Shown here: one piece after another, positions 41,675-64,000 of the stretch | Layout: the number at the start of each line of letters is the position of its first letter | How positions within the stretch are numbered: the first letter of the stretch is position 1 | From: Yamagishiella unicocca | Taxonomy: Eukaryota > Chlorophyta > Chlorophyceae > Chlamydomonadales > Volvocaceae | Direction: 5' to 3' | DNA: 64,000 nt | NCBI GenBank assembly: GCA_003116995.1 | Contig: BDSL01000127.1 | Span: 186,001 to 250,000 of the forward strand | Made by a program: the position numbers and the translations under genes | Notes under the pieces: generated by a model | What the model saw: only the letters and a program-made list of their open reading frames with translations | Told to the model about the DNA's origin: nothing | The model's database searches: none

Positions 41675-43643
41675 AAGGTTTGCCGTACATGAAGATCCTT
41701 TTCAAGCAGGTCCTCTATCCCAATGAGCGTACGACACGTACGAAGGCGTCTAAGTCGAGAACATGCGGCGTTTTAGTTATCGACACATAGATGTCAAAGA
41801 CGGGAACCGTCTTCTTCGTGAAGCAGATGATCGTGTATTTATTTTCGGTTTAGTATGCGTGGATGGAAGGGCGTGTGGAGGATGGGTTCGCGCGCTGTCC
41901 GGGACTTGACGACTGGCCTTGGCGTACCTGCTGGGTTGCTGGGTTGTGATTCTTGTGCGTGGGGAACCCGCGCGCTGTTCTGCATACCGGTAGGCTCCAT
42001 CTGGTCCTGGGGCCGTTAGTGCTGGCTTGACCTTTCCAGAGCAGTAGCATGCAGCGCCACCGGAAATGCCAACATAGCAGTAACGCCAGCATTATACTAC
42101 GCAATTCGTCGCCTATGGGTGGGGGGAGCTTTCTTGGGCTGCCGGCGCCGGCCCGGTGTCCCCTCGCCTGCACCACTTCTGGAATTGCCCCCTTGCTCGT
42201 GCAATGTTCGGTTTTTCTGCCGGTCTATCTTGTCGGGGGCGAGGTGTCTTGGCCGCGGCGAGCGAGGTCCCTGTGCCTTCGGTGCGTTTCGGGGTGTCTG
42301 CTCAGGTGTGCTGGTGTTGCTGTGGTCCCCCTGCTTGGGTTAGGCCCGGCTTGCGTCTCTAAAGTCCAGGACATGGCCCCCGCCCCTTCTTGTCCTGGGT
42401 AAACCGGGTTTGAGGTCACCTAAACACTTCATTTGTTGTGTCGTAAGGTATCTTAGGTCCCCAGCCTGTATCGTGAGGCGGCGTACCAGCGTAGCGCATT
42501 CGCGCGGTTTTCTCAGCTGGCGCTGTCTCGCATGGCCCCCCGTCTGCTACCATACTTTTACAGCCAACCCAATTTGGTACCATGGACATGGTGCTATTCC
42601 TCTTGCGTTGTAGGGCAGTGTGAGTTGCGCTCGTGTGGCCCACCTGCTCTAAAAAACGCCCGTTAGAGGGATCCCTTGATAAGCATCTGCCAGGTGGCAA
42701 TCCTGTCCGTTCGCGACTGCTATTTCCCGGTCCATTTGCGATCTTTTTGCGCGCAGCTTCCCAGCCCCCGCTGTAAATTTCGTGTACTGGGGACTTTTAT
42801 TCTGCTCCCGGCCGAGCGGAAATGCGGCCCGTCTCAGCTGTTTCTCCGGCCACTACATTTCGGCATCGGCGGTAGAATGTACGGGCTCGGTGCTCGTGCA
42901 GCACGGTCCCGGCCCTCACGACATACGATCTCGGCTTTTTTCAGCAGGGAATGGCATGTCGAGCATCCTCCGCGATGCCTCCCGACGCTCGCTTGTAATT
43001 TTGCCATTTAGAAGTCTCTGTCCTGTAATCGGTCATTTGGCTCTGCGTTCCGTCTGTGCTGCTCGTCCGACTCGTGTACACACGCTAAAATCGGCATCGG
43101 CGGTAGTTCTATACAGACTCGGATGGGGAAAATCTCGCTACAATGGTCTGCTTAATGACACAATTTCGTAAGCAGAAAGTAGCCAGCAAAGTTATATGCT
43201 GCTTTGCGCTCCCTCCTTATGCATGTGAGTTGCGACTCATAGCTGACTGCCAACATTCGCATCTTCGCCGAGGGCGCTGGGATGCTTTATTAAACTAGGA
43301 GCTCACGGCAGGAGGCGTTGCTTGGGCGCGAGGCCCACATACGCTGCGTACTACGCTTGGTGGGCGCCTGCCATGTATGTATTCTGCGGCGCGAGCGCGC
43401 GAGCGACTTGCCCTGACTGCACTGACTGCACTGAATTCATCTAGAGGTAGCAGTTCCATTACCTTATTTTGCTACGGGATGTTTGATGTTGCTCTCCGCA
43501 GTGCGTCATGCTCCATGGACTTAAGTCGAGGAACACGTTAACCAGCTGCAATACCTTTTGCAAAGCAACTTAATTTGTTAGAGGTTGATGTTACTGTTTA
43601 CCCAAGATACAGCTCGATACCTGTAATCTCCTAAGCGGTGCAC

Positions 43644-46600
43644 ATGGCCCAGCCCCTCGAGGATGACGAGGTCTATGAGGCGTACGTACGCCTTGGCAGC
43701 GCGAGTCCCGCAAACGGGCTGCGTAGTATTCCAAGGAACGAGCTGGACTATATTGTAAAGCTGGCTGGCTACCGCATCGTGTCGTCAGAAAGCGGAGCGC
43801 AGACGGACAGATATGTCTTATCTGCAATCGATGCGGGTGTGCAGCCTGCTGCCGGGAGCGAAGTGAACAAGCTCGAGGTGCAACCCACGTCGTGGGTAAT
43901 ACAGACGCACGGCAACAAAAAAGGTCTTACCGCGTTGATTGAACGCTTCAAGAAGGTCCTGAATGACCTCGGCATGACGTTTCAGCATTTCAACTACAGC
44001 GGAGACATCCGACGGATGGAGGTGAGTGCTTTGGCGGAATGAGCTCTGCTTGATTCCAGAATGGATACCACGAAAGGCCACGCAAGGGATCCAAGTGTGT
44101 TCACCTACTTTCCCACATCGAGTTGTTGTAATTGTAGTTGTCTAGTGTATGGATCTACTGTTCCAAATGTATGTGTGAAAAAGGAATTTCCCCCGCAAAA
44201 CACCTTAGATGTATTTGAGTTGACCATTATCAATGTCCTTCATATAGGCTTATCTTCGTTTGGCCCTGTCCCATCCCACCTAACGAAGTGGCCTAACGGC
44301 ACGGCCTCCATTACCGCCGTCGGTTCTTCCCTTGCCGCATCCTTTTCCGCAGAGACTCAGAGCGGAGAGGGAGAAACTTAAGGAAACAGCGATTCAGCTA
44401 CGCCAGGCTTTAATCTTGAAGATTATCAATTTGACGACGTTTTCTCGCGATTGCGTCGTATCATCGTACAGCAACACGCACAAGGACAAATATGCTCTGT
44501 CTACGGCCGATTTGGGTCTCCTGTTTAAGCACAGGCAGCGGGTCGAGTCGTACACGTCGTTGCGTGGCAGCACACGCCTGTGGGGCTGGTACCTCCGCAT
44601 CTTGGAGATTATGATCGAGCTCGGCCTGGCGGAAGTGCCCCAAAACCCGGACGACATCAACCCAAGCATCTTCCCGGACGCAGACCCAAACATAGACCAC
44701 AGCAAGGTATGTACGAGCGAGCAAAGCGTTGCTTTATGCATGCGTATTCTTAACAGTAGGGTACATACGTACGTACGTTTGCTCGTTTGCGGTGTGCATG
44801 TGATCTGCCACGGTCAGAGACAGCGCACCTGGAAGCCAGCATGTCGCTTGCAATTACACATATCTGGCGTTTTCGATTGCAAGCGGTGTTTCCCATTCTA
44901 CAAAATGTCGATCGCAACTGCACAATTCATTCCCGGCGGAGGCGCCGCGGGGGGTGGGCAGAGATGAGGGCAAGTCGCGCCGTATTTCTACATTTGATTA
45001 TTTAGCAGCTTCTGGTGTGGAATGAAGGGCGGGCAACCCTGCTGGCTCCTTTCTCTAGTTTTGACGCCAATGGACGCAAATGTGTGTGCCCCTCCCCCCG
45101 CACGAATTTTCTTGTGCTCTCAGATTCTCCCCCTGGAAGGGGAGTTGGATGGTCTACAGAGGCAGATACGTGGACTGCTGGTGCGTGATAAAGCGACGGG
45201 GCCGAAATTCAGGATGAATAACCCTGCTGTGCGCTTTTGCAATCGATGCATCTCCACTGCCCTAGCTGCTTGCTACCACCACGGGAGCGAAGCGAGCTTC
45301 GCAGATCGCCTTCATCTTCTATGTCCACATGGCGCGCATGCATACGTACGCAAATAAAGCACCGGGATCTTGCGTGGGTTCGCTGCAGCTTCAACGTGCG
45401 GTGTGGCACTTACTTTGCACAGCGAATACCGGTGCGCAGCTAATAACCAGTCTGCGATGTCCGCCCTTACCTACGCCAAGTACTTCCATACGCCGGACAT
45501 CATTAGCTACCTGCTGTGCGTTCTGGTTGCGAAATAGGACGTCGTTTACGGAGGCAGGATGGGAGGAAGACTCGACAGCGCGCAGCTACTAACGCGATTG
45601 TGCGCAGCAATATCGTGCACTTTACGCCATTAAGGCATAACGTCAAGTTGGACCTTCGGCGACTATGAAGAGGGGCCTAGAGGGCTGATTCGAAGGCGAC
45701 TTACTTGACCAATCACCACATACGCACGTGCCGTAACATTTTGCTTGACTGACAGAGCTAGCGGTTGCAGCGTGAGGCAAAAAGCAGGATACGAGCAGCG
45801 TACGAGCCTGCATCCATGGCTACCACTACTAGATAGACCCCCCGGTCTGCCCCATCGAGCGTTCACCTCAACACAACGTCAGCTACGTACTGTGGCGGCC
45901 ATCCTTGATGCTCATTGAGCCTTGCTTCCGCTTCACCGACATACCCGCCCATCAGCAAGTAGTACTACCTAGGCGTTACAGCCGCTTATTACATGGTACT
46001 GTTCCCTCCGCCGTCGCCGTGCGTTCCCCCCTTCCGCAGAAAGAGAAGGAGGAGAAGGAGCGAGCCGTTGAATTGCGTACTTCCTCGATCGCGAAGGTGA
46101 TCAAGTTGGTAGCCAGTTCTCGTGACGACTGCGTTGTACCGTCGTACAATGATACGCACATGGACATGTATGCCTTGTCAGCGAGCGACTTGGAGGCCGT
46201 GTTTAAGGACAGGCCGAATGTCAAGGAGGCGAAGGCGCCGACGTCGTTGCGTGGCAGCCCGCAGCTGTGGACCTGGTACGCACGCATCTTGATGCTTGTG
46301 GAAGGTATCGGCCTCAAGGATACCGAGGCTGACATCAGTCTCGACTTCGATGCGAGCATCTTCCGAGAGCCAGACGAGGACGACCTAGACCCCGGCAAGG
46401 TTTGTGCAAACAATATGCGTGGCTTTATGCGCGCATAATCGTGGGCACGGCATATGTGGATAATCTTCAACAAATCGTTAAACAGTTACCACTGGTCCAT
46501 CCGTTAGTTGAGCAGATCGTACACCGTCGCGGTGGCTTGCCTACCTTTGTTACGGTGCGGTTGGGTTTTTGTCTCTTTCGTCTCCTTCAGTGTCAGGCGA

Positions 46601-49600
46601 TGTGCCCGATGGTTCTGCGTTTTGGTCTGCGCCCACTGGGCTGGGCTGGGGTTTAGCTCTTTTTTATTTTTAGGCCATACACACTGACCGGGATAAAACA
46701 ACACACACCTACCAGCCAACGCCAAGCTGCCGTTGGTCATTTTTGGTTTCCTAGCTACGGGAGACGGGGGACCGGAGGGGACGGACGCCGCGACAGGCTC
46801 CCATGTCCGATCGGTCGCGGCTACTGCGTGTTGCATGTTGTTGTTGTAACGGTTACATGTATTGCTACGGTTGCATGTATTGCTTGACTATTGGCAACCG
46901 GTGGTCAACGTCCGTTACTGCCCCAGGGGTCGAGGGTTGAATGACACCCTCGCTCCTCATGCTAGGGCTATTTCGTTTTACAATGAGCGGCCCAATCCCC
47001 CCTACCTACCTGCTGCCTGCCGTGCCTACACGTTCTTTGCGCTGTAGGTTGACGGAATAGCCAAGGACTTGGCAGTCCTGGAGGAGGGGCTTCATGACCT
47101 GCGGGTGTGTTCGTTGTTAAGCACTAACGGGAACTGCTTCGTGCTGGTTGACCCAGTTGGGTTCTTTAGCGTACTAGGCTAGGACGGACGGAGTGCGTCC
47201 TCCGGCTATGGTACTTCGGCGGTTGGGTGAACTAACGACATGCCGTCATTCCCAGCGATCGCCATGGAATCCATGTCAATTCCATTTTGTCGTGTGTGGC
47301 ACTTCCCTCATTGTTTCACGCCTCCGTCCGCAGAAAGCCAAGAACGATGCTATATCAGCTGCGATAAAGCGTCGTGCTGTCCTGATCCAACGGGTTGTCG
47401 AGTTGATGACGGTTTCTCGCGACTGCATCGTGTCTTCATACAGCAGCAATAAGCACCTAGTCGAGTGCGTCCTCTCTGAGGAGGATGTGGATGCGCTGTT
47501 GAAGGAGAGGACTTTGGGCGTGGACCCCCAGACGTCTAGTTCGGAAGCGCATGGTAGCTTGCGCCTGCGGGAGTGGTACCTTCGGCTCTTGGAGGCCGTG
47601 GAAGAGCTCGGCCTGAAAGATGCTCAGGCTCCCATCAGCCGCAACTTGGATGCGAGCATCTTCCGGAAGCCAGACGCGGCAGTAGACCCCGGCAAGGTCT
47701 GTATGGGTTGATGCGTGGCTTTATCTCTAACTAGGTGGAAGTTGTTTTCGCTCGAAGTAACTAAGGAACAAAGCGGGAGGGGAGGCAGGGGAAGCTGCCG
47801 CCACAAGAATTTCTGCTCGGCACATGCAACGGCAGCAGGGCAGGTTCGTACATACGAGCGGATAAATGGAAGGGAACTCCATGTTTACTACATCGATAGA
47901 TAATTGTGGCTTATCCATCGGTACCTGGAACGAATTACGGACTCCATCTACCGGCTAACTTGACAGCAACTAACCCGTCCACGCCCACCGCCTGTACTCG
48001 CTCCTTTGCTTTGCGTGTCAAGGTTCCCGATTTGGACGTGAAGATCGCTCAGCTTGCCGAGGACCTACAAAAGCTGACGGTACGTGCTTGATTATCGCTT
48101 GACCGATACTTAGATAGAACAAAGAGCAGCGCTACTGTTCTTGCTGACTGCGCTCGTGGCTGCCAAGCGCAAACGTGGCGCAATCCTTTTGTTTTACCAC
48201 TGCACCGCCCACGTAATTTCTGCATCCCCGCGGCTTCAGCTCTCCCCCGCTCGCCTCTCCGTGTATACTCTTACCTCGCTCGCTGGACCCCCTTCCACAG
48301 GAAGAGCGGAAGCTTACTGAAGGGGCTGCCAAGTTACGCGCTTCGTTGACGGTGAAGGTGGCACAACTAATGGCGGACTCCCGCCACTGCATCGTGGCAT
48401 CGTACGACCATGAGCGCGTGGCGGAGTACGTCATGTCGCAGGATGACGTGGATGCCCTGTTTGAGGGCGTGCAGCGGGGCGAGGAGCCGCCGCAGGGGCG
48501 AGGCAGCACCCGCCTGCGGGCCTGGTACGCTCGCCTCTTGGAGGTGCTGTACGGGCTCGGCCTGGACGACACCAAGGTTCCAGTTAGCCCCAGCTTCGAT
48601 GCGAGCATCTTCCAAGAGACGGCCCGAGACCTAGACCCCGGCAAGGTTTGTGCCAATGTAGAATTGCGTGCGGGCGTAGTCATCAGCGTCACTCAAGATA
48701 GGGAGCGGGGCATTAACTACATGGTTGCGGGCTTTCAATTCGATTTGCGTACGTGCGTGAGCAAGCGTGATTAGGCATGTCGCGTGAGCGAGCGTGATTA
48801 GCTACCTACGTACCTGCTCTTAGCCGTCCAGAACTACCGTTGCTTTGGAGTCCTGAACATGATACGTACGCGATGTCGGGTTTCTTATCGGTACGTATTA
48901 AACGTAAGGCATACCTAGCTGCATATACACATCGTTAAGCTCCAAAAGCTGCCAACCATTCATTCCGTTACAAGCCAGGGCAGGTGGCTGGGCTGGGATA
49001 ATGAAGAAACCAGTGGACAGCAGGATATGGATGGGAGAGGGCGGTGGCGGCTCAATCAAGCAAGGCCCCGCCATCATTAATGTGTGTGTAGTACTTAATA
49101 CAATGGATTTGTTCCAGACCAAAGGCAGAACCATATGGCACTCCGCCGGACACGTATTGAAGGAGACGAAAGAGGCAGAAACCCGGGCGCACCGCACCAA
49201 TGCATGGCAAACCACCAACAGGACACAAATTATCAGTCCAGAGGCAAGAACAGCAGCAACCAGCTCCTCAAGGGGAATTTGCGCTGTAGGCCCCCTTATC
49301 AGGAGCCGACCACCAAGCAACACGCCTAGCAGACCCGCAGCCGATGAACCAACGGAGCGCCACCACGATACAACCAGAAGCAAAGGGACAACCTTGCCTC
49401 CATGCACGCAGCCGGGGCCGATCACGACCCTACAGACACGTCGTCCGGCCCCCTCACGCACGCACAAGCAAGGCGACCGGAAACTACCCTCCGAAGGGGA
49501 TGCCGAGGCTCCACAGCGGCCCAACCCTTCCGGGAAAGGCTTAACGCTGCAAACCCTTGCAGAAGGGCCCCAAACTCCAGGCATTGGCCACCCAGCAGCA

Positions 49601-52600
49601 GCGGCGAGGGGTGATGAAGCCATGTTCCTTTGCTTTGCGTGCGTGCTCGGGCAGCACTTCAGCTTGACCGCAAATGATGGGAATCCCCGCTACCCGCCTG
49701 TAATCCTTGCTTTCGCACACGCGTGCCAGGTTAACGGTCTGGCGGTTGCGATGGTGGAGCTGGAGAAGGAGATACGCGAGCTGACGGTGCGTACATGCAT
49801 GCTTATCTTCCGCAGACGAGCACTAACCGCTGGATTTATTCAGGGCTGTTGGATGGAAATAGTGTTTATCACTACTAGCATTGTTTCCACTGCCTTGCTG
49901 CCTGCAATATGAGCCGCCGTACGTTGGCACTTGTCTCCAAGTAATGCCCTCGCTCCCTCCTCGGTGACACCTACCCATACCTGCCTGTTACCCCTTACTT
50001 CCGCCGCAGAGGCTTAAGGAGGAGTTGGACACGGTCCTGGCGGTGCGTACTACTTGAAGACAAGCGAACAGCGTATAACGGTCTGGTTGAGCATCGGAGG
50101 CCGGTGGCTCTTGCTTGGACGGATATGACATCGCTGGACCAACATGATCCAAGCGATGCCTTCACCAAAGCTTGCCTGCTCCGTACTCCATACGCAGCGC
50201 CATGTCAGTCATCAGCCCTTAGCCTTTTACGTAACACAGTGCGGTCGCTTGTTATGCCTCGCCGTACCAACCCGTTACGTGTTGCAGGAGAAGAGGAAGA
50301 AGTGGGAACAGGCCACTGCGTTGCGTGCTGATTTGATCCAGAAGCTGGTCAGCCTGCTGATGCCGCTTTCCCGGGACTTCATCATCGCGTCGTACAGCAG
50401 CAGAAGCACGAAGATGGATGAGTACGACCTCTCTGAGGAGGACTTGTATGCCCTTGGTACATTCTTTGAAGCGGAAGGGCGAGGCGAGGACCCCCGTCAT
50501 CAGGCGCGAGGCAGTATGCGCCTGCGAGACTGGTATGCCCTCTTGCTGAAGGTTGTCGAAGGGCTCGGCCTCAAGGAAACCGAGGCCATCAGCCCCGACT
50601 TCGATGCGAGCGTCTTCCGAGAGCCTGACCCGGACCTCGACCTCGACCAGGTTTGCACATGTCCTTTGTGGAGCGTGAAGCTGGGATAACCTGCTTGATG
50701 ACGGATCAATGAATCTGATACAAATAGGATAAGGTACCCGTGCATTCCACATCCAAGTTAGCAATGAACTGACAGTAAGCTCCCTACCCTAACCTCCAAC
50801 AGTGAGTTTACCCCCCCGCTGCACCACCCTGCCTGATGACGCACCCCTTTTGACATGCAAGGTCAACAATCTGGCTGCTGGTGTGGCCGAGCTGGAGAGG
50901 GCCTTACTTCAGCTCACGGTGCGTGCCTGCCTGTTCGATCGGTCTTATCCGAATAGCTAGAGCAGATCGTGTTACTACTATCACATCGATGGTTCTACCT
51001 CTTGGTCTGGAACCCACTGTAACCGTTATAACAACTGTCACAATTATCACACCTTATTTTTGTAACAGTTACCACTACACCTTAATTCAGTCAGCGTGCC
51101 TCCATGCTTGCTTTGGGTACGATGCGTCTCCGTCCCACGTCCTGTCGCACACTTAAAATCGGCACACATACACCACCACATCGCTCCCTGCCGCATCGAT
51201 GTGCGCCAGCGGACATCATGTCCGATGACGCAGCAGCCTTGCGTCTGGCCCTGCCCCCACCCCTACGTACCTGCCTCTGCTGTACCCCCGCGTCGCTGCT
51301 TACGTATGTAAGTCCCCTTGATACGCGTCCCTCATTGCACCTACCCCGTACACACGACCCGCAGCAAGAGAGGAAGAAAGCCACAGAAGCTGCAATGAAG
51401 CTACGGGCTTCGTTGGCGGTGAAGGTGACACAACTAATGGCGGACTCCCGCCATTGCATCGTGGCATCGTACGACCATGAGCGCATGGCGGAGTACGTCA
51501 TGTCACAGGAGGACGTGGATGCCCTGTTTGAGGGCGTGCAGCGGGGCGAGGAGCCGCCGCAGGGGCGAGGCAGCACCCGCCTGCGGGCCTGGTACGCTCG
51601 CCTCTTGGGGGTGCTGTACGGGCTCGGCCTGGACGACACCAAGATTCCAGTTAGCCCCAGCTTCGATGCGAGTATCTTCCAAGAGACGGCTAAGGATCTG
51701 TACCCCGGCAAGGTTTGTACGATGCACTGCTGCGTGCGTGTGTAGCTATCTGCTGTGACATTCCGTTTAGGTAGGCGGCAAGCAAGGCACGCAGCCGCAG
51801 CTTAATTGTTTTGAATGCGGTTACTTCGTTGCTGCCGGTTGGTTACTCGGTTAACGACCACGTGGACCACCGACGGAGATGCATAGTTGATCAAAGCTCC
51901 ATCGCTTCGGTATTACGCTCTGGGTTCCTTGCCCGTTCGTCAGTAGTGAAGCCACGCCCATTCGGCTTATTTAACAATGTGCCGTTCCTTTGGTGGCAGG
52001 TTTCGTTGGTCCCAATCATATCCTATTTGTTGGCATCAACCTGCCTCCCCCAGCCACTTGTGATCCTTGATTGCTCGCGCGCATCCCTTTCAATGCAAGG
52101 TGTACGATTTGGCTGTTGAGGTAGAAGAGCTGGAGAAGGAGATGCGTGAGCAGATGGTGCGCGCTTGCCTTAGTACGTAGTAGTAACGGGTACAGTGGGT
52201 TCCAGACCAAAAGATAGAACCATCGGGCACATCGCCAGACACGTATTGCATACACGGCCAGAAAAACCTGTACACGGTTGGCGTTTCCCTGCAACAATCT
52301 ATAGAAGCAAAAAACGTAGTACCTCGCTTGAAATTGACATGCAGCAGAACGTAACGATTACAACAAGAACGTACAGGCGGCGAAGACGAGGAATGATGGC
52401 GGTCGTAGTTCCATCCGGCGACACGGACCTGACCTGCTAGCCCCCCATGCCCCCACGCGCATACATTATCCAATTATTGATCTACCTAGAAGTGTACACC
52501 ATAGCTTTCTTGCCCTTCATCGGTGAGCGCTATCTATGCCATTGGGCCTTAGCAACCAGCTCTGTCCCGGCGCCATGTGGATTGAGGTGGATTACACTTC

Positions 52601-55600
52601 CCTGCGTCCCCGCGACATCCCTTGTTACTTTTCGCAGGAGGAGAAGAAGAAGCGGCAGGAGGCAATTGCGCTGCGTGCTGATTTGATAAACCGCATTCCC
52701 AACATGGTGTCGCTGTCCCGCGACTGCATCATCTCGTCGTACAGCAACAGTACGAAGATGGACGAGTATGACCTTTCCAAGGAGGACTTGGTGGCCCTGT
52801 TCAACTTGGTGCCTGGCCTGGGCACCCGTCAGCAGGATCGTGGCAGCACGCGACTGAGGGACTGGTATGCCACCATCTTGAAGGTTGTGGAAGAGCTGGG
52901 CGGCCTCATCAATGATATGGCCAGCAGCGAGGAACACATTGGCCCCAACATTGATGCGAGCATCTTCCGAGAGCCAGACAAGGACGACCTAGACCCCGGC
53001 AAGGTTGGTACAGTACACATGAGCGGCAATAATGTTTCATGTTAATTATTTGTGCGCTATCTAAGTAAGCGGCATGGCGCATTCAGCAGCTCGACAGACT
53101 ATTGTTCGAGGCGGCTGACCGACGAGTGTGAGCTACCATGGGGCTTTCCGCGGATATCAAATGGGCGCCATCCAACTAACTACGTAATAACCAACACGCA
53201 GCTCCCATGCAACAGGATTTCCTACGAATGGAGAGGTGTACATTGCAACAAACCTATCTGCCACAACACTTTGTATGCATTAGGATGTAAAATCGCTTCC
53301 TTGACGAAACATTCGGAATGCGAAATCGCTTCCCTGACGAAACGGTTGTAGACACCCACCCGTGATCTAAGAGGCCTCCTCAAATTTTCTCGCTAATAAC
53401 GTTAACGGGCTGTTTTGGTGTCCAGAGAGTGAAAATCCCCGGCTGCTGCCCCGCCTTGCCTCATGATGTACGCGTTTGCCCTGCAAGCTTGGCGGCCTGC
53501 TTGCGAAGCTCGATGAGCTGGAGAAGACCATACTGCTGATTGTGGTAGGTGCTAAACTATAGGCGAAGACAACTGGGATTTCCACAACGAATGGACGCTT
53601 ACGCACCAACAACCACTGTAACCGTTACAACAACCTGCGTATGCCCCCACGCGCCCACACATGGTTTGCTTGGATACGTACGACGCGTCTATAGCTTACG
53701 TCCTGCAGCATACAGAATCCTTTATTTGCCACGTGCCGGTTTGCGTCATACGTACACCTATCATCATCTCGTCCATCCTCGCCGTCTATTTTTATCCTTG
53801 GTCTTTGCGTGCGTGCTTGCCCAGGCCCCTTCCCCGCACCTGCCTCTGTAGCTCGTCCCCCGCCACCCTTTGTTATGCTTCCCTGACCGCACCTACCCCG
53901 TACACGCACACAACCCGCAGCAAGAGAAGAAGAAAGCCACAGAAGCTGCAATGGAGCTACGGGCTTCGTTGACGGCGAAGGTGACACAACTAATGGCGGA
54001 CTCCCGCCATTGCATCGTGGCATCGTACGACCATGAGCGCATGGCGGAGTACGTCATGTCACAGGAGGACGTGGATGCCCTGTTTGAGGGCGTGCAGCGG
54101 GGCGAGGAGCCGCCGCAGGGGCGAGGCAGCACCCGCCTGCGGGCCTGGTACGCTCGCCTCTTGGGGGTGCTGTACGGGCTCGGCCTGGACGACACCAAGG
54201 TTCCCGTTAGCCCCAGCTTCGATGCGAGTATCTTCCAAGAGACGGCCAAGGATCTGTACCCCGGCAAGGTTTGTACGATGCACTGCTGCGTGCGTGTGTA
54301 GCTATCTGCTGTGACATCCTGTCTAGGTAGGCGGCAAGCAAGGCACGCAGCCGCAGCTTAATTGTTTTGAATGCGGTTACTTCGTTGCTGCCGGTTGGTT
54401 ACTCGGTTAATGACCACGTGGACCACCGACGGAGATGCATAGTTGATCAAAGCTCCATCGCTTCGGTATTACGCTCTGGGTTCCTTGCCCGTTCGTCAGT
54501 AGTGAAGCCACGCCCGTTCGGCTTATTTAACAATTGTGCCGTTGCTTTGGTGGCAGGTTTCGTTGGTCCCAATCAAATCCTATTTGTTGGCATTAACCTG
54601 CCTCCCCCAGCCACTTGTGATCCTTGATTGCTCGCGCGCATCCCTTTCAATGCAAGGTGTACGATTTGGCTGTTGAGGTAGATGAGCTGGAGAAGGAGAT
54701 GCGTGAGCAGATGGTGCGCCCTTGCCTTATCACGTCGCCGCAGGGTCGATTCACTTACGTTGTTGTAACGGGTACAGTGGGTTCCAGACCAAAAGATAGA
54801 ACCATCGGGCACATCGCCGGACACGTATTGCATACACGGCCAGAAAAACCTGTACACGGTTGGCGTTTCCCTGCAATAATCTATAGAAGCAAAAAACGTA
54901 GTACGTCGTTTGAAATTGACATGCAGCAGAACGTAACGATTACAACAAGAACGTACAGGCGGCGAAGACGAGGAATGATGGCGGTCGTAGTTCCATCCGG
55001 CGACACGGACCTGACCTGCTAGCCCCCCATGCCCCCACGCGCATACATTATCCAATTATTGATCTACCTAGAAGTGTACACCATAGCTTTCTTGCCCTTC
55101 ATCGGTGAGCGCTATCTATGCCATTGGGCCTTAGCAACCAGCTCTGTCCCGGCGCCATGTGGATTGAGGTGGATTACACTTCCCTGCGTCCCCGCGACAT
55201 CCCTTGTTACTTTTCGCAGGAGGAGAAGAAGAAGCGGCAGGAGGCAATTGCGCTGCGTGCTGATTTGATAAACCGCATTCCCAACATGGTGTCGCTGTCC
55301 CGCGACTGCATCATCTCGTCGTACAGCAACAGTACGAAGATGGACGAGTATGACCTTTCCAAGGAGGACTTGGTGGCCCTGTTCAACTTGGTGCCTGGCC
55401 TGGGCACCCGTCAGCAGGATCGTGGCAGCACGCGACTGAGGGACTGGTATGCCACCATCTTGAAGGTTGTGGAAGAGCTGGGTCGCCGCAAAGAGACCGC
55501 CGGCGGGGAACGCACCATCAGCCCCGACTTCGATGCGAGCATCTTTCAAGAGCCAGCAGACGAGGACGACCTAGACCCCGGCAAGGTTGGTACACATGAG

Positions 55601-58600
55601 CAAATAATTACTTATATTGATTACTCGCTTTGGCATCTGGAACGGAAGCGATGTTCTTGTTATAATGACAGTAGTGCTTGTGATTACAGATTGTGATTAC
55701 AGTGGGCTCCAGCAGATAGACCAAAAAGGGGGGACCACCGGGCACAACTACTGTACTAGATGAGAAATTGCATCCTTGACAAAGCAACCGTACTTCATTG
55801 TGGATAGACGCTCATGATTTGCTGAGAGACCAAGAGGAGGAAACCCCTCTCCTTTTCTCGCGAACAATAACCTAGGCTGTTTTGGTCCGTGGTTAATGAA
55901 CAATATCTAATCCCGACTGCCCCGCCCGCCGCTCCGCCTGCCTCATGATGTACGCGTTCGCCTTGCAAGCTTGGCGGGGTGCTTGCTAAGGCCAAAGAGC
56001 TGGAGAGGACCATACTTCAGCTCGCGGTACGTACGTGTTTTATTATACAACCGGGAGAGTTCCATTCGAAACGGACGTACGTGTACGCACTGAAAACATT
56101 GAGCGGGTGTATGTACCACTTACCCCATGCTTTGCTTTGATAAGTAGACGCGATAGGTAGACGCGTCTCTTACGTTGCGTCACAAAGTTCATCTACCTGT
56201 AAATACATAAATCGCTAACACATACACTAGCGATGTTTGAAATAGACACAATTATGCGCTTTTACAGCAATGATATCACCCCGTCCACCTTGCCTCGCCG
56301 TCTACCTAATCGGCCTTGCTTTGCGTGCTTGCCCGGCCGGCCCACCCCCTTCACCGTACGTGCCTCGCTCATTCATTCACCGCCGTTGATGATACGCTTC
56401 CCTCATTGCACCTACCGCGTACACACGGCCCGCAGCAAGAGAAGAAGAAAGCTACAGATGCCGCAATGGAGCTACGGTCTCCGTTGATGGTGAAAGTGGT
56501 CGAACTAATGGCGGACTCTCGCCACTGCATCGTGGCATCGTACGACCATGAGCGCATGGCGGAGTACGTCATGTCACAGGGTGACGTGGATGCCCTGTTT
56601 GAGGGCGTGCAGCGGGGCGAGGAGCCGCCGCAGGGGCGAGGCAGCACCCGCCTGCGGGCCTGGTACGCTCGCCTCTTGGGGGTGCTGTACGGGCTCGGCC
56701 TGGACGACACCAAGGTTCCAGTTAGCCCCAGCTTCGATGCGAGTATCTTCCAAGAGACAGCCAAGGATCTGTACCCTGGCAAGGTTTGTACGGATGCGCA
56801 ACTGCTGCGTGCGTGTGTAGCTATCTGTTGTGTCACATCAGAAAGGCAGCAGCGAGGCATCAATTTGATTCTGCAGTAGCTAGTGTAAGGCCCATCGCAG
56901 TCACCGTTTTGCCGACTCCAGCATGCCGCTCCTAAGGTTACGACAACCCCTGTCTTTGGTGTTAGGCAAGCCGGTTAAACGGCTATAGTACATAACTTGA
57001 TTTATTTGCGGTTGCCGCTGGATATGCGGTAAATTATTGGCCTACCTTCCCAAGCCATCTCGAATCCTTGCTTACGCGCGTCCTTTCCTTCAATGCAAGG
57101 TTTACGATCTGGCTGTTGAGGTTGAGGAACTGGAGACAGAGATCCGTGAGCTTAAGGTGTGTGCTTGTGCATTAAGACAAGCATCAATGACTGGATTCGT
57201 TAGGCGCATACCTATACACGACCGACGTTTACCTTCCTAATACACAAGCAATCCGCAGAAGCCGTAGCTCTCCACCGCATTCACTGCACTGCTACTGCTG
57301 CACCATGTATGATCCATTTCCTTACCGCCCCTACCGCACCAACGAGCCATTGCCATGGTGTAGGTTGCACTTGCCGTTTACCCCCAAGCAACTAACCTTC
57401 CCTCGCTCCTCGGCGACGCGCTTTTTTTTGCCTGCTTTTCCCCTCCCACAGCGACTGAAGGAAGACCTGGACAAGCGTCTGGCGGTGCGATTATTGCTAC
57501 TTGATGTGTGAAGACGGGCAAGGAACATACTCGTTGCACTTGCATACCGGTAGTTCCGAAACTAAACCAGTCTGCTGACGCGACCCATAGCTGTATGTAT
57601 GTGCCGCTGCCGACATGATAACCTGCCTCCGTCAGTGCTAAATCATCTGTCGTTGGCCCGCCTTTCACACGGTCGCTGCATTCGCGGGCCCTTATATTTA
57701 TTCCGCGATTGATGTCCCTTAAATTTCGCAGGAGGAGAAGAAGAAGAGGGAGGAGGCACTTGCGCTGCGTGATGATTTTATCCAGAAGCTTGTCAGCCTA
57801 GTGTCGCTTTCCCGGGACTGCATTGTGCCGTCATACAGCAGTTTCAAGAAGATGGATGAGTACGACTTATCCGAGAAGGACTTGGGTGTACTTTGCACCA
57901 TATCTAGGAATGGGCGAGGCGAGGACCCCCATCATCAGGATCGTGGCAGTAAGCGCCTGTGGAACTGGTACGTCCTCCTGCTGAAGGTTGCGAAAGAGCT
58001 CGGCCTGAAAAGTGCCAGGGCGCTCATGAGCCCCACCTTCGGTGCGAGCGTGTTCCGAGCGCCAGACCCAGACGACGTAGAACCCGGCAAGGTAGGTTCG
58101 TATGCGTGAGCAACGAAGCAACGCGTGGATGGCTTCGCGCTGCATCATCACAGATATCGGCAGGACGGGCAGCACGCACCTGGTTTATTACCTGTGCGTG
58201 GGTGTATAGCAGTATGTAGTTTGCGGCGATTCGATGGGAGGTCGGAGACAGGTAAGCGCACACCTTGCACGACGCATATCAGCGACTACCAAAGGCGCGC
58301 TCCCGGCGTAGGCATACTCCACGGAAGGCGTAAGAAGCGAGCACGGGATATTGGTAGTAGTCGAGGATGGTGATTGGTGACGGAGTAGTAGCAACTATTA
58401 TAGTGAGCCCCATACGCAGGATAGATCGTAATTGCTTGCGTGGGCAGAGAGCGAAACGAAAATGAAGAAGCATCCGCAGAAGCCATACGTATCAATCCCG
58501 TTCGCACCTCTATAACATTTCCAAAGTAATTATTGAAGGATTACCTTTAAAATCCATTTCACTAACTATGCTCCGTTGACCACCTGTAGGCCTGTAATAC

Positions 58601-61600
58601 TTATGCGATGAGTAACTGGATAGGCAGATAGGGCGGGCACTGCTGTTCATGCCCTCTCGTTTGATTGATAGCGCAGTTGAACATTCATGCCGGCCCTCTC
58701 GTTTGATTGACAGCGCAGTTGAACATAGTACGTGGCCCAAACAAGGGACTGACATCCCCCATCCGCCCGCCTGCCCCCACCTGCTGTCCCCATGCCTTTG
58801 TGCTGCAAGATTTTCGGTCTGGATGCCGATGTCGCGAAGCTGGGCGAGGACTTACATGAGCTGGTGGTGCGTCTTTGATTTGGCGAAGAGTAGCGCTAGT
58901 AGCAGTAACAACTGGCAGTTGTTACAACAACAACGACAACAACAACAACTGGCTGGCAGTGCTGCTAGCTGCGCTCGAAATAATGTACCCGACTCAATCG
59001 ACCCAGATTCGCAGCTTCACTTTGGAATGGAATGCAGCAGGCATACGCCGCCCTGCTGCCACGCACGTATCACTCATTTACCCACACGATCCATCGTCGC
59101 CAGGTCGTTGGCTGGCGATTAACCCCCTTCCCGTTTCCCCCGGATGCTCTTGCTTCCTTACTGTGCCAACCCTTCGCAGAAAGCCAAGATGGATGCTATC
59201 GCAGCTGCGATTGAGCAGCGTGCTTCTTTGATCCAGAAGGTGGTCGAGTTGACGGCGCTGTCACTCGAGAACTGCACCAAGTCGCCGTACCGCAAATATG
59301 AACAGCTGGATGAGTTTATCCTGTCCAAGGAGGACGTTGGTGCCATGTTCGAGGACAGACGGGGCGCGGACACCGAGGCACGCGGCGGCAATCGCCTACG
59401 GGCCTGGTACCTTCGCCTCTTGGAGGTTGTGGAAGGGCTCGGCCTGCAGGATGCCCAGGCGCCCATCAGCCCCGACTTCGATGCGAGCATCTTCCAAGAG
59501 ACAGACCCGGATATCGACCCCGGCAAGGTTAGCCTGATTGCTGAGCAACTGCGTGCATGGGATCGCATGTGCACGCTCGTCATGTGAGGCAGGACATTAT
59601 TTAGTCCGTTCGTTGGCGGATGGTTTGCGGCGACCAGAGGCTTCCCAGCCAACTGGTTCAATTGTTCACCTAGCTGCCGTAAATAGCTTGCTCGCTCTGT
59701 ACAAGTACAATACTCGGCTCAGCTGCGGATACCCTAGGCGCACTACGGGCAACCAGGCAGGCGGGCGTTTTCACCTCCCATGAATGTAGTTTCAATCTCA
59801 TTCCTTCTTTCCAGCAGTGTAGTTTAGGTTCGGTGAAAACTGTGATTTGACGATACATCCGTCCCATGCTTCTGCCTTCGCGCTGCAAGATTGACTACCT
59901 GGAAGCTGAGGTGGCTAAGCTGGAGGATCAGTTACACGAGCTGATGGTGCGCGCTTGCTTGGTCGAGCTTCATGAACGCGACCCGCTGGCCTGTGCTTGC
60001 ATTGTTTATGTTGTGACGCCGATCTACCTCGCACCGCATCTACCTCCACCTGCTGCCGTGCATGTTACCTGCGTACAGCATGGCCGCCATATATCATCCT
60101 CGCTATGCCGTTGGCTCTCGCATCCCGTCCGTTGACGACATTCTCCCCTGATTTTACTGTGCTCCCTTCCACACGCTCGCAGCGGGGAAAGGAGGAAGCG
60201 GAGGCGGCCATCAGAGACGCCAAGCTTAAACAGCGGCAAGCCGATGCTCGCAAGATGCTGGAAGGGGCATTACAAGCAGAAGCCGACCTGCGCATGGCGA
60301 CCAATATGTGCAACGCCGATTGCGGTTGCAATTGCAACTGTTATTGCTGTTGCAATTGCAACTGTTATTGCTGTTGGTACCGCAAGGGCCATTGCGAGGT
60401 ACGTTTGCAGGCGATCCTACAGGCCAACAGCGGTGGATGGTTCCTGGGTTCGCTTTAGTAATTGCTGACATGCACAGCGTTACGCCGCAGCCGGAATTCT
60501 ATCCCGCCCCCTAGCTAGATCGCAAGTCCCCACGTCGTCCCGTGTTTCCGCCTCTTATTTCCTGTATGTTTGCGCATCCGCGCTCGCAGCCGCTCAGGCA
60601 CCCTTGCAACTCTCGCATCCTGTCTAGATACCTGTATCCTGCGCGCGTGCCGCTCTATTTCCGTTCTCTGTCATCGAGTGTTTTTAGGTGCAAGCAATAG
60701 GGTGCCTCGACAAAAATGCTTTCGTAGCGCCAGGCTCTGTACATAGGTGGTGCATACCTGTCATGCGGCATCTCGCTCAGCGTCTGATGTCTATAGTCGG
60801 TCGCATACTCTTGCATTGACGACAACAGTCTCCTACCCGATTTTACGAACTTATAATCCGGACAGGGCTCCTCCTGGGCCGGCTCTGCTCAGCACGAGCA
60901 CAATGCTGACGGCAGCAGCGGCGCAGCCAGCAGCACCATCTGGCCCAATCCCAACTCTGCTCAGCACGAGCATAAGACTGACAGCAGCTGCTATGTGGGC
61001 ACCACCAGCACGGGATTGCGCCCCAACTCGGGTCAGCATGATGATAAGCCCCAGACGACCGACGGCAGCAATGAGGCAGGCAGCATCACTATGAAGGCGA
61101 GCTCCAGTTCTGGCTCCAGTTCTGGCTCCAGTTCCAATTCCAGTTCCAGTTCCAGTTCCAGTATCAGTTACGATTCCGATCCCGATGTGCCAGAGCCGCG
61201 GGTCGAGTCCCTTCCCTGGGTGAGCCGGCCATCTCAGGTTGGCTGTGCGATTGTGCCCGCCTGCGCCGTATTTATTGCACATATGCCGCGGCCGCCGCCC
61301 CTCCCTATTTATTCCGTCCACCTCTGCCTTTATTTGTCACCCCGTTGATTGACCTTACTTGCCGTCCTGGTCACCTACGGCCCCTGCTTACATGGTTTAG
61401 CAGTGGTTTAGCAGTGACCCACGCACGATGTGTAACTTCCATCCAATGCGTTGTGATAATGAGAGGCGTCCTGGACCACTGTTGCTAACATAGGCGGCAT
61501 CACGTGGCGCACGCCTCCTCCCTTCCCTACCTCTTCACCCATCTGGACGCCCGAAGCACCGAAATCCCGATCTCGGACCGACCGTCACAACACTGAAACT

Positions 61601-62988
61601 TGCACCCCCCGCTCCCTACCTGGCCCCGCGCGCCCCTTGCTGCCCCCCACAGTCGCAACAGGCGCTGGTGGACTTCCGGTCGCTGGTGCGGAGGCGCGGC
61701 TTCCAGCTGCTGGAGCTCACTGACGAGCCCACCAGCGCGAGGTTGGACGCAGGTATGTTTACGTGCGTAGGCCCCGTGGCAGTTGGAATGTTGGGTGGCG
61801 ATTGCTTACCCTATTTGGCGTGGTGCCGGTTGCTTGGTTTGGTTGCGATGGCTGCGGGGGTTGTCGGTGATCGTACTAGAAGATTGCGATTGCGACGATT
61901 GCGATGCGATGATGGTGAGCGCGAGGGGATATGTGGGGTTGGTTATGGCTTAACTGCCGCGCTGTTGGGCGCGGATGGAGTAAACTAGGCGGTATGATGA
62001 AAGTGTGTTGATGTGTGTGGCCGGGTAATCAGCAGCAACGATCCCTGGCATCAATGCCGGACGTACGTGCCAGTATGCCGAGCTACCAGCAGTGCCCAGT
62101 CCGTGCATCGTGTCCCGGCGTACCGGCATGTGCGGGAATATATTTGTGTCCGCTCTCTGGGTACGGCAGAGCTTCGCACCACGTAAGGGCGACAACTAAC
62201 CAGCTGGGGTGGCAGGCAGGTGTGCAACACCCACCGTATCCCCTACGTGCCCATATTGACCACCGTCGCCCTTCCAAAACCTAAGCTCCTTCCCTCCTTC
62301 CTTCCCCCATCCTATCGCGCGCACAGTCTTCTCCCTGCCGCCCGAGTTGTGGCCCGTGCTGCCACCTGGTGCGATGTATTGCTTGGATGACTCCGACTCC
62401 GACCCACGCTCGAGCTTTGGCTACATGCAGAACAAGAACTTCCCGGATACCAAGGTTTGGTTGTTCAGGGGCAGGGGAGGGACCAGCCAGCGTTCCAGCC
62501 AGCGCAAGGGAGGGCAAGGTGGGCAAACACATCGCTCGGTGGGGCCGCGGTAATCGGACAGGCAGGAGGGCCATCCAACATGCACCGCCGCGCCCTCTCC
62601 GCTGCGTCTTGCGTATAATCCCAACGCACCCGCCGCTGGCTCCGTGCCCTGATCGCATTACCACCCCTGGCCTGGGCTGGGTGGGCTGCCTCGAAACGCC
62701 TCGCTAGCTCCTACCTCCGACGCAACCGCTGCCCCACTTCCTCTGCCACCTCCTCTGCCACCTCCTCTGCCGTCCCTGCACCCTTGCGCCCTCTCATTAC
62801 TCCTGCCGTTCCCCAGGTGCAAGTGAGCACCTACTTTGGCAAGTGGAACAGCCAGCTGGTCGACTTCGTGGTGTCCTGGGAGCACACGTCGCGGTCGAAG
62901 GGCCCACGGCAGCAGCCGGGTGACGTCAGGACGCAGCCGCCCCTGGAGCCCTGGGAGCCGCGGCAGGTCTTGGCGCACACCACCAAGG
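43644..62988 (+). CDS. Giant exon-array protein, unrecognised family (3' end outside window)
   Basis: Function unknown. The ATG at 43644 starts an acidic N-terminal exon (43644-44021). Then come twelve long exons (44353-44706, 46040-46399, 47334-47696, 48301-48645, 50288-50650, 51365-51712, 52638-53003, 53921-54268, 55220-55585, 56436-56783, 57732-58091, 59180-59527), each a ~115-122-residue copy of one domain. Each is followed by a 57-base exon (45124, 47048, 48023, 49730, 50862, 52100, 53488, 54657, 55970, 57100, 58810, 59890). Two extra 33-base exons lie at 50010-50042 and 57452-57484. Every exon in the array starts and ends in phase 0. The tail is 60183-60398 (Cys-rich), 60866-61219 (Ser-rich), 61653-61752, 62327-62454 and 62817-62988, all phase-compatible, so at least ~2120 residues. 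Domain hallmarks are SRDCIVSSY, LRxWYxxLLxxVEGLGL and DFDASIFREPDxDLDPGK. No signal peptide or membrane segment was seen. The array is firm; joining the tail exons is less certain. Confidence 0.8.
44353..45180 (+). repeat. Array unit 1
   Basis: The domain exon 44353-44706 (118 codons) reads RLRAEREKLKETAIQLR… and keeps SRDCVVSSYSNTHKDKYALS and STRLWGWYLRILEIMIELGL. The usual SPDFDASIF is altered to INPSIFPDADPNIDHSK. The helix exon 45124-45180 encodes ILPLEGELDGLQRQIRGLL. It is one of the most divergent units. Confidence 0.88.
46040..47104 (+). repeat. Array unit 2
   Basis: The domain exon 46040-46399 (120 codons) begins KEKEEKERAVELR and ends DASIFREPDEDDLDPGK. The helix exon 47048-47104 encodes VDGIAKDLAVLEEGLHDLR. 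The intron between them (46400-47047) holds a reverse-orientation copy of the GGTTCCAGACCAAA repeat. Confidence 0.9.
46550..46645 (-). repeat. GGTTCCAGACCAAA-family dispersed repeat, copy 2
   Basis: Read on the minus strand, it matches copy 3 over about 90 bases, including the extension AAGGAGACGAAAGAG. It lies in the intron of array unit 2. Confidence 0.8.
47334..48079 (+). repeat. Array unit 3 (subtype C)
   Basis: The domain exon 47334-47696 (121 codons) begins KAKNDAISAAIKRRA and ends LDASIFRKPDAAVDPGK. The helix exon 48023-48079 encodes VPDLDVKIAQLAEDLQKLT. Its closest relative is unit 12, at the far end of the array. Confidence 0.9.
48301..50918 (+). repeat. Array units 4-5 (first A-B pair)
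   Basis: A exon 48301-48645, helix exon 49730-49786 (VNGLAVAMVELEKEIRELT), extra 33-base exon 50010-50042 (RLKEELDTVLA), B exon 50288-50650, helix exon 50862-50918 (VNNLAAGVAELERALLQLT). The intron after the A exon is 1084 bases, against 316-388 in the later pairs, because of inserted sequence. Confidence 0.9.
49105..49200 (+). repeat. GGTTCCAGACCAAA-family dispersed repeat, copy 3
   Basis: It carries GTTCCAGACCAAAGGCAGAA, GGACACGTATTG and the downstream AAGGAGACGAAAGAG block. It is inside the enlarged intron after array unit 4. Confidence 0.82.
50984..51034 (-). repeat. GGTTCCAGACCAAA-family dispersed repeat, copy 4
   Basis: This is a short copy in reverse orientation in the intron after array unit 5. 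It includes the outer TAACGGTTACAGTGGGTTCC part on the minus strand. Confidence 0.8.
51365..53544 (+). repeat. Array units 6-7 (second A-B pair)
   Basis: A exon 51365-51712, helix exon 52100-52156 (VYDLAVEVEELEKEMREQM), B exon 52638-53003, helix exon 53488-53544. The 33-base exon is absent; the interval carries a dispersed repeat instead. DNA from about 51330 to 52900, introns included, is nearly identical to 53890-55482. The B exon ends differently (LGGLINDMASSEEHIGPNID). Confidence 0.92.
52183..52250 (+). repeat. GGTTCCAGACCAAA-family dispersed repeat, copy 5
   Basis: It lies between the helix exon of unit 6 and the domain exon of unit 7, where the first and fourth A-B pairs have the 33-base exon. 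Confidence 0.88.
54758..54830 (+). repeat. GGTTCCAGACCAAA-family dispersed repeat, copy 6
   Basis: This is the duplicated counterpart of copy 5, carried along by the segmental duplication of the A-B pair. It keeps the fuller outer end TTGTTGTAACGGGTACAG. Confidence 0.88.
55696..55750 (+). repeat. GGTTCCAGACCAAA-family dispersed repeat, copy 7
   Basis: A diverged copy (ATTACAGTGGGCTCCAG… CACCGGGCACA) with a small internal insertion, in the intron after array unit 9. Confidence 0.65.
56436..58866 (+). repeat. Array units 10-11 (fourth A-B pair)
   Basis: A exon 56436-56783, helix exon 57100-57156 (VYDLAVEVEELETEIRELK), 33-base exon 57452-57484 (RLKEDLDKRLA), B exon 57732-58091, helix exon 58810-58866 (IFGLDADVAKLGEDLHELV). 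Unit 11 has decayed at several constant positions (for example SPTFGASVFRAPD for SPDFDASIFREPD). Confidence 0.9.
56871..56999 (+). repeat. 129-bp dispersed repeat, copy 2
   Basis: Counterpart of 40041-40169, ~16.8 kb away and in the same orientation, inside the intron after array unit 10. The matching outer limits (CTGCAGTAG… and …ACATAA.TTG) suggest a discrete inserted element. Confidence 0.9.
59180..59946 (+). repeat. Array unit 12 (subtype C)
   Basis: The domain exon 59180-59527 (116 codons) begins KAKMDAIAAAIEQRA and ends SPDFDASIFQETDPDIDPGK, but SRDCIVSSY is replaced by SLENCTKSPY. The helix exon 59890-59946 encodes IDYLEAEVAKLEDQLHELM. It resembles unit 3 more than its neighbours. Confidence 0.9.
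60183..60398 (+). other. Cys-rich exon of the array gene
   Basis: This 72-codon exon follows the last helix exon in phase 0. A charged helix (RGKEEAEAAIRDAKLKQRQA) leads into a run with 13 Cys in about 31 residues, built from two copies of CNCNCYCC (24-bp tandem repeat, 60327-60350 and 60351-60374) and ending YRKGHCE. A donor (GAG|GTACGT) follows. If it is not spliced, the frame stops at 60458 after 19 more codons plus the stop. The pattern could bind metal or be lipidated; neither is shown. Confidence 0.65.
60866..62988 (+). other. C-terminal exons of the array gene (or a following gene)
   Basis: Four exons continue in matching phases. 60866-61219 is a His/Ser-rich linker with a run of serines and SYDSDPDVPEPRVESLPW. 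61653-61752 contains ALVDFRSLVRRRGFQLLEL. 62327-62454 contains SLPPELWPVLPPGAMYCL. 62817-62988 contains VSTYFGKWNSQLVDFVVSWE. The last ends in phase 1 at a GT donor, so the gene continues past the window. I recognise no family. No start codon context or stop separates these exons clearly from the array, so they are assigned to it, with the alternative that a second gene begins near 60866. Confidence 0.55.
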
Positions 62989-63031: not shown

Positions 63032-64000
63032 CGGGGGCTAAGGGGGCTAGGAGGGCTAGGAGGGCTAGGGGGGCTAAGGGGGCTAGGGGGCTAGGGGGCT
63101 AGGAGGGCTAGGAGGGCTAGGAGGGCTAGGGGGCTAGGAGGGCTAGGGGGCTAGGAGGGCTAGGAGGGCTAGGGGGCTAGGAGGGCTAGGAGGGCTAGGA
63201 GGGCTAGGAGGGCTAGGAGGGCTAGGAGGGCTAGGAGGGCTAGGAGGGCTAGGGGGGCTAGGAGGGCTAGGAGGGCTAGGGGGGCTAGGAGGGCTAGGAG
63301 GGCTAGGGGGGCTAGGAGGGCTAGGAGGGCTAGGGGGGCTAGGAGGGCTAGGAGGGCTAGGGGGCTAGGAGGGCTAGGAGGGCTAGGAGGGCTAGGAGGG
63401 CTAGGGGGGCTAGGAGGGCTAGGAGGGCTAGGAGGGCTAGGAGGGCTAGGAGGGCTAGGAGGGCTAGGAGGGCTAGGAGGGCTAGGAGGGCTAGGAGGGC
63501 TAGGAGGGCTAGGAGGGCTAGGGGGAGGGGGGCTAGGAGGGCTAGGAGGGCTAGGGGGCTAGGAGGGCTAGGAGGGCTAGGAGGGCTAGGAGGGCTAGGA
63601 GGGCTAGGAGGGCTAGGAGGGCTAGGAGGGCTAGGAGGGCTAGGGGGGCTAGGAGGGCTAGGAGGGCTAGGAGGGCTAGGGGGGCTAGGGGGCTAGGGGC
63701 TAGGAGGGCTAGGAGGGCTAGGAGGGCTAGGAGGGCTAGGGGGGCTAGGAGGGCTAGGAGGGCTAGGGGGGCTAGGAGGGCTAGGAGGGCTAGGGGGGCT
63801 AGGGGGGCTAGGGGGGCTAGGAGGGCTAGGAGGGCTAGGAGGGCTAGGAGGGCTAGGAGGGCTAGGGGGGCTAGGAGGGCTAGGGGGGCTAGGGGGCTAG
63901 GAGGGCTAGGAGGGCTAGGGGGGGGCTAGGGGGGGGGGCTAGGGGGCTAGGGGGGCTAGGGGGCTAGGAGGGCTAGGAGGGCTAGGAGGGCTAGGAGGGC
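63032..64000. repeat. 9-bp G-rich minisatellite running off the window
   Basis: Over 100 copies of a 9-bp unit (GGGCTAGGA, with GGGCTAGGG and 8-bp variants) continue to the last base. It begins about 44 bases after the donor at 62988, so it probably lies in an intron of the array gene. In-frame TAG codons recur in every frame of the G-rich strand, so it is not coding. The G-runs could form quadruplexes. Confidence 0.97.

Follow-up and report, generated by a model that had tools for sequence, protein, structure and literature searches.

S-adenosylmethionine decarboxylase (AdoMetDC) consists of two sheets, the pyruvoyl sheet and the scaffolding sheet, and in trypanosomatids it is accompanied by the prozyme, a catalytically dead paralogue that forms a heterodimer with the enzyme and regulates it (PMC5201418). 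Dead enzyme paralogues, including this regulator of AdoMetDC in trypanosomes, were known before; at the locus described here, in the green alga Yamagishiella unicocca, an exon of the same housekeeping enzyme appears to serve as a repeat unit, thirteenfold inside one gene. The host belongs to a lineage of algae in which the evolution of multicellularity is studied. The prozyme keeps the whole two-sheet fold together with the dimer surface. Like the prozyme, the array protein is, judged from its sequence, a catalytically dead AdoMetDC paralogue; unlike the prozyme, it consists of a fragment of the N-terminal half that is repeated in one chain, separated by coiled-coil linkers and found in a green alga, and it has no C-terminal half. 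With eukaryotic AdoMetDC itself the array shares a homologous first coding exon, the phase-0 3' end of that exon, the order of the motifs and, for its first module, similarity in the 5' UTR, whereas it differs in lacking the Glu-Ser pair, Cys82 (human numbering here and below) and the C-terminal half, and in consisting of 13 tandem copies with helix linkers. A further comparison is with coiled-coil and spectrin-like scaffolds, which likewise have long tandem repeats joined by helices and genes organized exon by module; the array stands apart from them in that its repeat unit comes from an enzyme exon.

The window, i.e., the whole stretch of 64,000 nucleotides that was analysed (contig C127:186001-250000 in a genome of 133,378,104 bases and 1415 contigs), contains no N bases. 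The array lies on its plus strand at 43644-60398 and was modelled as 28 exons, namely a first coding exon (E1), twelve domain exons (D), twelve helix exons (H), two short linker exons (S) and a last exon (T1). With exon borders set by eye from the open frames, the lengths of all 28 are divisible by three and all are in phase 0. Every one of them has a GT donor, all exons after the first have a CAG, AAG or TAG acceptor, and no stop or frameshift was found inside any of the 28. The D exons measure 345-366 nt (115-122 residues), the H exons 57 nt (19 residues) and the S exons 33 nt. The open protein comprises 1871 residues to position 60398, or 1890 when T1 is read to its stop, and without T1 it is acidic (pI 4.95). 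An original prediction from the letters alone had described, on one strand and with splice signals, twelve domain exons of 115-122 residues that each have a helix exon of 19 residues behind them, and all of this is confirmed. It had missed a thirteenth module, the diverged N-terminal E1, which carries the start codon, and the two 11-residue exons.

Upstream of the array lies a putative remnant of a 5' untranslated exon (43502-43643), collinear with the 5' UTR exon of AdoMetDC and with the acceptor CAG/TGCGTCA in both. It is followed by E1 (43644-44021; 126 residues), a diverged copy of the entire first coding exon of AdoMetDC, which has lost the Glu-Ser pair of the cleavage site and was identified by Pfam, BLASTP and a hidden Markov model (HMM) of AdoMetDC. 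The modules and their helix exons then alternate as D1 (44353-44706) and H1 (45124-45180), D2 (46040-46399) and H2 (47048-47104), D3 (47334-47696) and H3 (48023-48079), D4 (48301-48645) and H4 (49730-49786), the latter followed by the linker exon S4 (50010-50042), D5 (50288-50650) and H5 (50862-50918), D6 (51365-51712) and H6 (52100-52156), D7 (52638-53003) and H7 (53488-53544), D8 (53921-54268) and H8 (54657-54713), D9 (55220-55585) and H9 (55970-56026), D10 (56436-56783) and H10 (57100-57156), again followed by a linker exon, S10 (57452-57484), D11 (57732-58091) and H11 (58810-58866), and D12 (59180-59527) and H12 (59890-59946), before the modelled T1 (60183-60458), which encodes a charged stretch and a Cys-rich 24-bp repeat. 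All D exons were placed by the exon model and by genome searches (that with D4, and for D3 that with D3 itself), D1-D11 also by the HMM, D3-D12 by the tree described below, and D7 and D9 in addition by a match at the DNA level. The H exons were placed by the exon model and their heptads, and the S exons by the exon model and the tree.

Almost certainly, E1 and the D modules trace back to eukaryotic AdoMetDC (PF01536), namely to its first coding exon. The alga has an intact AdoMetDC of its own, with two coding exons at C41:319532-320853, which is 80-88% identical to the AdoMetDCs of the best eight algae listed (volvocine and Chlamydomonas-like). The strongest evidence of origin comes from reciprocal searches of the genome, in which nothing unrelated appeared among the best candidates scored. 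The first coding exon of AdoMetDC, used as a query together with 36 residues of translated 5' UTR, found eight places at E<=10 among the eight best candidates scored, i.e., itself, E1 (E 1.7e-11) and six of the twelve D exons (E 0.05-0.6, weak singly). Conversely, D3 found 13 places among the 13 best candidates scored, the twelve D exons and AdoMetDC (E 0.39). In direct comparison by BLASTP, E1 is 39% identical to the AdoMetDC exon over 108 columns (E 9e-21), and a profile of the twelve D modules aligns with this exon in hhalign with a probability of 96.8% and an E of 3e-10, at 35% identity over 81 columns. The direct match between E1 and the D profile is weak (probability 4.9%). E1 retains a segment ahead of the first helix that is missing from the D modules, and these retain motifs that E1 has lost; hence, E1 in its present form did not give rise to the D modules, nor they to E1.

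The likeness extends to motifs, exon borders and DNA. Three array motifs have counterparts in the intact AdoMetDC of the alga: CIVSSRSNEQMDAYVLSESS for CIVSSY..(D)EYxLSEED, GTTRLLNAVPRLLEVARTLGL for GSTRLRxWYxRLLEVVExLGL and RASFLFPDN for DASIFREPD. AdoMetDC exon 1 (after ASFLFPDNQ) and the D exons, which end a few residues after DASIFREPD, have a phase-0 end in common. In DNA comparisons, E1 is matched by the AdoMetDC locus with an E of 4e-9, and D7 and D9 with 1.5e-8. Furthermore, the stretch before E1 is 70.7% identical to the AdoMetDC 5' UTR over 75 columns (blastn, E 0.007 and 0.049), and in either gene the similar stretch occupies positions -125 to -52 relative to the start codon; the match is weak alone, and its collinearity with E1 supports a remnant of the 5' UTR. 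The AdoMetDC gene on C41 also has a short upstream open reading frame (uORF), split by an inferred intron and ending in AKFSAAFADCVKFPS*, and this end resembles the conserved peptide of the plant AdoMetDC uORF. A group of AdoMetDC uORFs is among the uORF groups listed in PMC2075485.

An HMM of the AdoMetDC N-terminal part, built from 108 sequences (the alga's own and 107 kept of 114 matches), gave 42.9 bits for E1 and 9.2-15.0 bits for D1-D11, each above all of its 1000 shuffles, of which 717-892 returned a score. D12, at 4.3 bits, was exceeded by 3 of 1000 shuffles and thus alone does not stand above them. The D profile in turn gave the own AdoMetDC 32.9 bits, as compared to 10.4 for the best of 5000 shuffles (3840 returned a score). 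When AdoMetDCs were ranked by this profile, the own enzyme came first, the next named ones were volvocine or Chlamydomonas-like, and three of the ten lowest were land plants by name, which suggests that the array arose within the green algae.

In a Pfam scan, E1 passes the cut-off of PF01536 (SAM_decarbox) marginally, with 22.6 against 22.2 bits; in the genome-wide PF01536 search, whose list is limited to E1 and the two exons on C41, it scores 19.5 bits and remains below it. In the Pfam comparison that had been suggested at the outset, E1 alone passes; none of the eight D modules scanned (of twelve) matched PF01536, spectrin or another repeat family above the cut-off. The D profile did not match AdoMetDC chains in the PDB, and no relatives of the array were found in a protein collection by limited searches that scored about 8,000 candidates each; the first of these searches missed AdoMetDC for E1, and volvocine AdoMetDCs are in the database. 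The original prediction had held that the shared motifs match no family. This did not hold up, since they are decayed AdoMetDC motifs, visible by profile and reciprocal searches only. A confident match to a known family had been named in advance as the finding that would speak against the prediction, and the AdoMetDC identity comes close to this.

The array has lost the catalytic features of its ancestor. In a joint alignment of the 13 modules, the column of the pyruvoyl Ser68 contains Ser only in D2, where Ala precedes it, and the column of Glu67 contains Glu only in D3, D5 and D11, such that no module (0/13) carries the Glu-Ser pair of autocleavage. Cys82 is likewise absent from all 13, being replaced by His in two and Arg in 11. 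A tblastn search of the window with the whole enzyme gave 16 matches at E<=10. The ten with E<0.1 are E1 and nine of the twelve D exons and start within residues 20-45 of the query; the remaining six have E>=3.2 and lie outside 43644-60458. The C-terminal half of the enzyme (AdoMetDC exon 2) was not found in the array, as no match with E<0.1 extends past residue 147. The modules thus seem unable to make the pyruvoyl cofactor, so that the array protein would not be a decarboxylase, and no enzyme activity is expected from it.

The twelve D modules fall into types. In their tree, in which three of nine inner branches reach the tool's mark of good support, D4, D6, D8 and D10 form type A (support 100/99), D5, D7, D9 and D11 type B (97/98) and D3 and D12 type C (91/92), while D1 groups with D2 (88/87). 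The order along the array is therefore E1, D1, D2, C, four A-B pairs and C, i.e., the pairs are bracketed by type C. The introns common to D6-H6-D7 and D8-H8-D9 are 97.9-98.3% identical, which shows that a unit of about 2.6 kb was recently duplicated in tandem. For other pairs the exons have remained alike (94.5% identity for D8/D10, 91.3% for D4/D6) and the neighbouring introns align at only 42-56%, a pattern that fits selection on the coding exons, exon-wise gene conversion, or both. By the NG86 method, dN/dS is below 1 in all 64 printed D pairs (dS<1.2) of 66 computed, with a range of 0.28-0.93 and with 0.28-0.39 in five of the six type-A pairs; the youngest pairs are the least constrained (0.78, from seven changes, for D6/D8 and 0.77 for D7/D9). 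A search of the genome with D4 at E<=0.001 found 13 places among 14 candidates scored, the twelve D exons and a partial copy, a 38-residue piece, on contig C63. At about 4263-4878 of this contig, some 610 bp match the array at 90.9%; they comprise the end of a type-A module, an intron and a helix exon, and hence represent a displaced array fragment.

The heptad pattern by which the linkers of coiled-coil scaffolds are recognized is found in the H exons. They carry I, L, V or M at 69 of 72 heptad a/d positions as compared to 20 of 156 elsewhere, and 8 of 10,000 column shuffles were as good in any register. Structure prediction of one unit, also proposed beforehand, gave an answer of moderate to low confidence: two module models are mainly helical, with a mean pLDDT of 74.9 and 64.1. 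AdoMetDC has a four-layer alpha-beta-beta-alpha fold; its sheet is absent from the D models, even with AdoMetDC rows in the alignment, and their comparison with solved structures in the PDB gave no convincing match. In the D4 model, two strands of two residues each (31-32 and 45-46) occupy the places where the enzyme strands around CIVSS and AYVLS are expected, and the model starts with a helix at residues 2-30. Given this start and the heptads of the H exons, a linker may continue into the adjoining module as a single longer helix. The idea of a modular tandem-exon protein with helical linkers, put forward in the original prediction, is thus supported by the exon model, dN/dS and the heptads.

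As to what the array encodes, we favour a repeat protein of some 1,890 residues, perhaps more, that is a neofunctionalised pseudoenzyme, probably acting as an elongated scaffold, since such a role best explains a dead, acidic, modular and helix-linked protein. We infer the following order of events. The founder would have been a duplicate of the 5' portion of the AdoMetDC gene that took along the 5' UTR, the start codon and the first coding exon, the latter representing part of the N-terminal half of the enzyme and ending at the same phase-0 intron. This exon would then have been duplicated repeatedly within the gene, acquired a helical extension at its 5' end and become interleaved with 19-residue heptad-helix exons. 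As all introns are in phase 0, the insertion of a further module would leave the reading frame intact, and the latest addition would be the copied A-B pair. The helix linkers may determine the distance between modules or mediate oligomerisation, and the modules may offer repeated spacer or binding surfaces. Intermediates are still visible, with E1 near the enzyme, the D modules further away and an A-B pair just duplicated, such that the steps by which an enzyme became a repeat protein, and perhaps changed its fold, are directly testable. A bolder version, in which the enzyme exon turned into a structural repeat by losing the catalytic sheet for a mainly helical fold, giving a lineage-specific rod-like protein that is possibly fused to an unrelated large protein, is one we advance tentatively and consider rather doubtful; if true, it would be a recent example of how a metabolic enzyme can become a modular scaffold through exon duplication.

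That the array yields a single functional protein, presumably from one transcript, is a conclusion we hold with considerable confidence. The opposite, a decaying or selfishly expanding exon array that is untranscribed or transcribed piecewise, would agree with the recent duplication of a D-H-D unit complete with introns, the high dN/dS of the youngest pairs, the stray fragment on C63 and the limited protein searches that found no relative in other species. However, such an array would hardly be expected to show 28 of 28 modelled exons free of stops and frameshifts and with AG/GT borders throughout, dN/dS below 1 in the 64 printed pairs, the low values among type-A pairs included, and older exon pairs that stay similar where their introns do not, and we therefore regard decay as improbable. 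Chance likeness between AdoMetDC and a new, unrelated domain family is a far more distant prospect, already contradicted by the specificity of the reciprocal whole-genome searches, the shuffle controls, the DNA-level matches and the common phase-0 exon end, even though Pfam and PDB sequence searches with the D modules did not point to AdoMetDC and the predicted models look helical.

A role in the polyamine pathway deserves separate consideration. Dead modules might bind AdoMetDC, its substrate or polyamines and so tune the active enzyme, like a multivalent prozyme, and activation of AdoMetDC by one of its catalytically dead paralogues is known (PMC5201418). The ancestry of the array makes such control possible, and the AdoMetDC 5' UTR remnant before E1 would be in line with it, but nothing in the sequence demands it. 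Only the N-terminal part was kept, the C-terminal half being missing; by our reading of the alignment, the D modules have another sequence in place of the strand that follows the cleavage site; and no AdoMetDC uORF could be recognised ahead of the array. Moreover, plant-type AdoMetDC is a monomer and offers no dimer surface to capture. A regulator of this kind is accordingly unlikely in our judgement, and a scaffold role seems to us somewhat more probable for the array protein than one in the polyamine pathway.

Where the gene ends depends on T1. Read through, T1 meets a stop at 60456-60458; an alternative phase-0 donor, GTACGT, follows position 60398. Inside T1, at 60309-60385, a 24-bp tandem repeat codes for an unusual Cys/Asn/Tyr-rich stretch. 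Downstream, on the same strand, lie four phase-compatible exons (60866-61237, 61653-61752, 62327-62454 and 62817-62987), the last three of which match a paralogous gene at C5:363320-364597. This C5 paralogue has several Ser-rich exons, and no Pfam match above the cut-off was found in the pieces of it that were scanned; the window copy of this type of gene seems to run past the window end. Whether the array and these exons form one gene, with the AdoMetDC modules fused to the N-terminus of a paralogue of the C5 gene, we consider evenly balanced, and such a fusion would extend our favoured scaffold reading rather than replace it. For it speak the GTACGT donor, the phase-0 start of the next exon after a CAG acceptor, and the position of the first Met of the 60866 exon as the 76th of 124 residues, which makes this exon look internal. 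The originally predicted span, 43644-62988, takes in these exons as well; it is borne out as far as T1, and 60866-62987 may or may not be spliced on. Against a single gene stand the stop in T1 when read through and the fact that the D-module genome search lists no place on C5 among the 14 candidates scored. TGTAA, the algal poly(A) signal, was not found in 60399-60866, which is uninformative at that length, given 12 occurrences in 11,142 bp of array introns.

The window holds further features. On the minus strand, 11697-12494 matches Ubiquitin carboxyl-terminal hydrolase, along with a weak N-terminal ubiquitin-like match below the cut-off. A Ro60-like protein is encoded at 35901-38657 on the plus strand, with TROVE and Ro60 vWA domains and a long Ala/Asp-rich repeat between them. 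Finally, 63035-64000 consists of a 9-bp minisatellite, GGGCTAGGA, with about 109 copies in the window and apparently continuing past its end.
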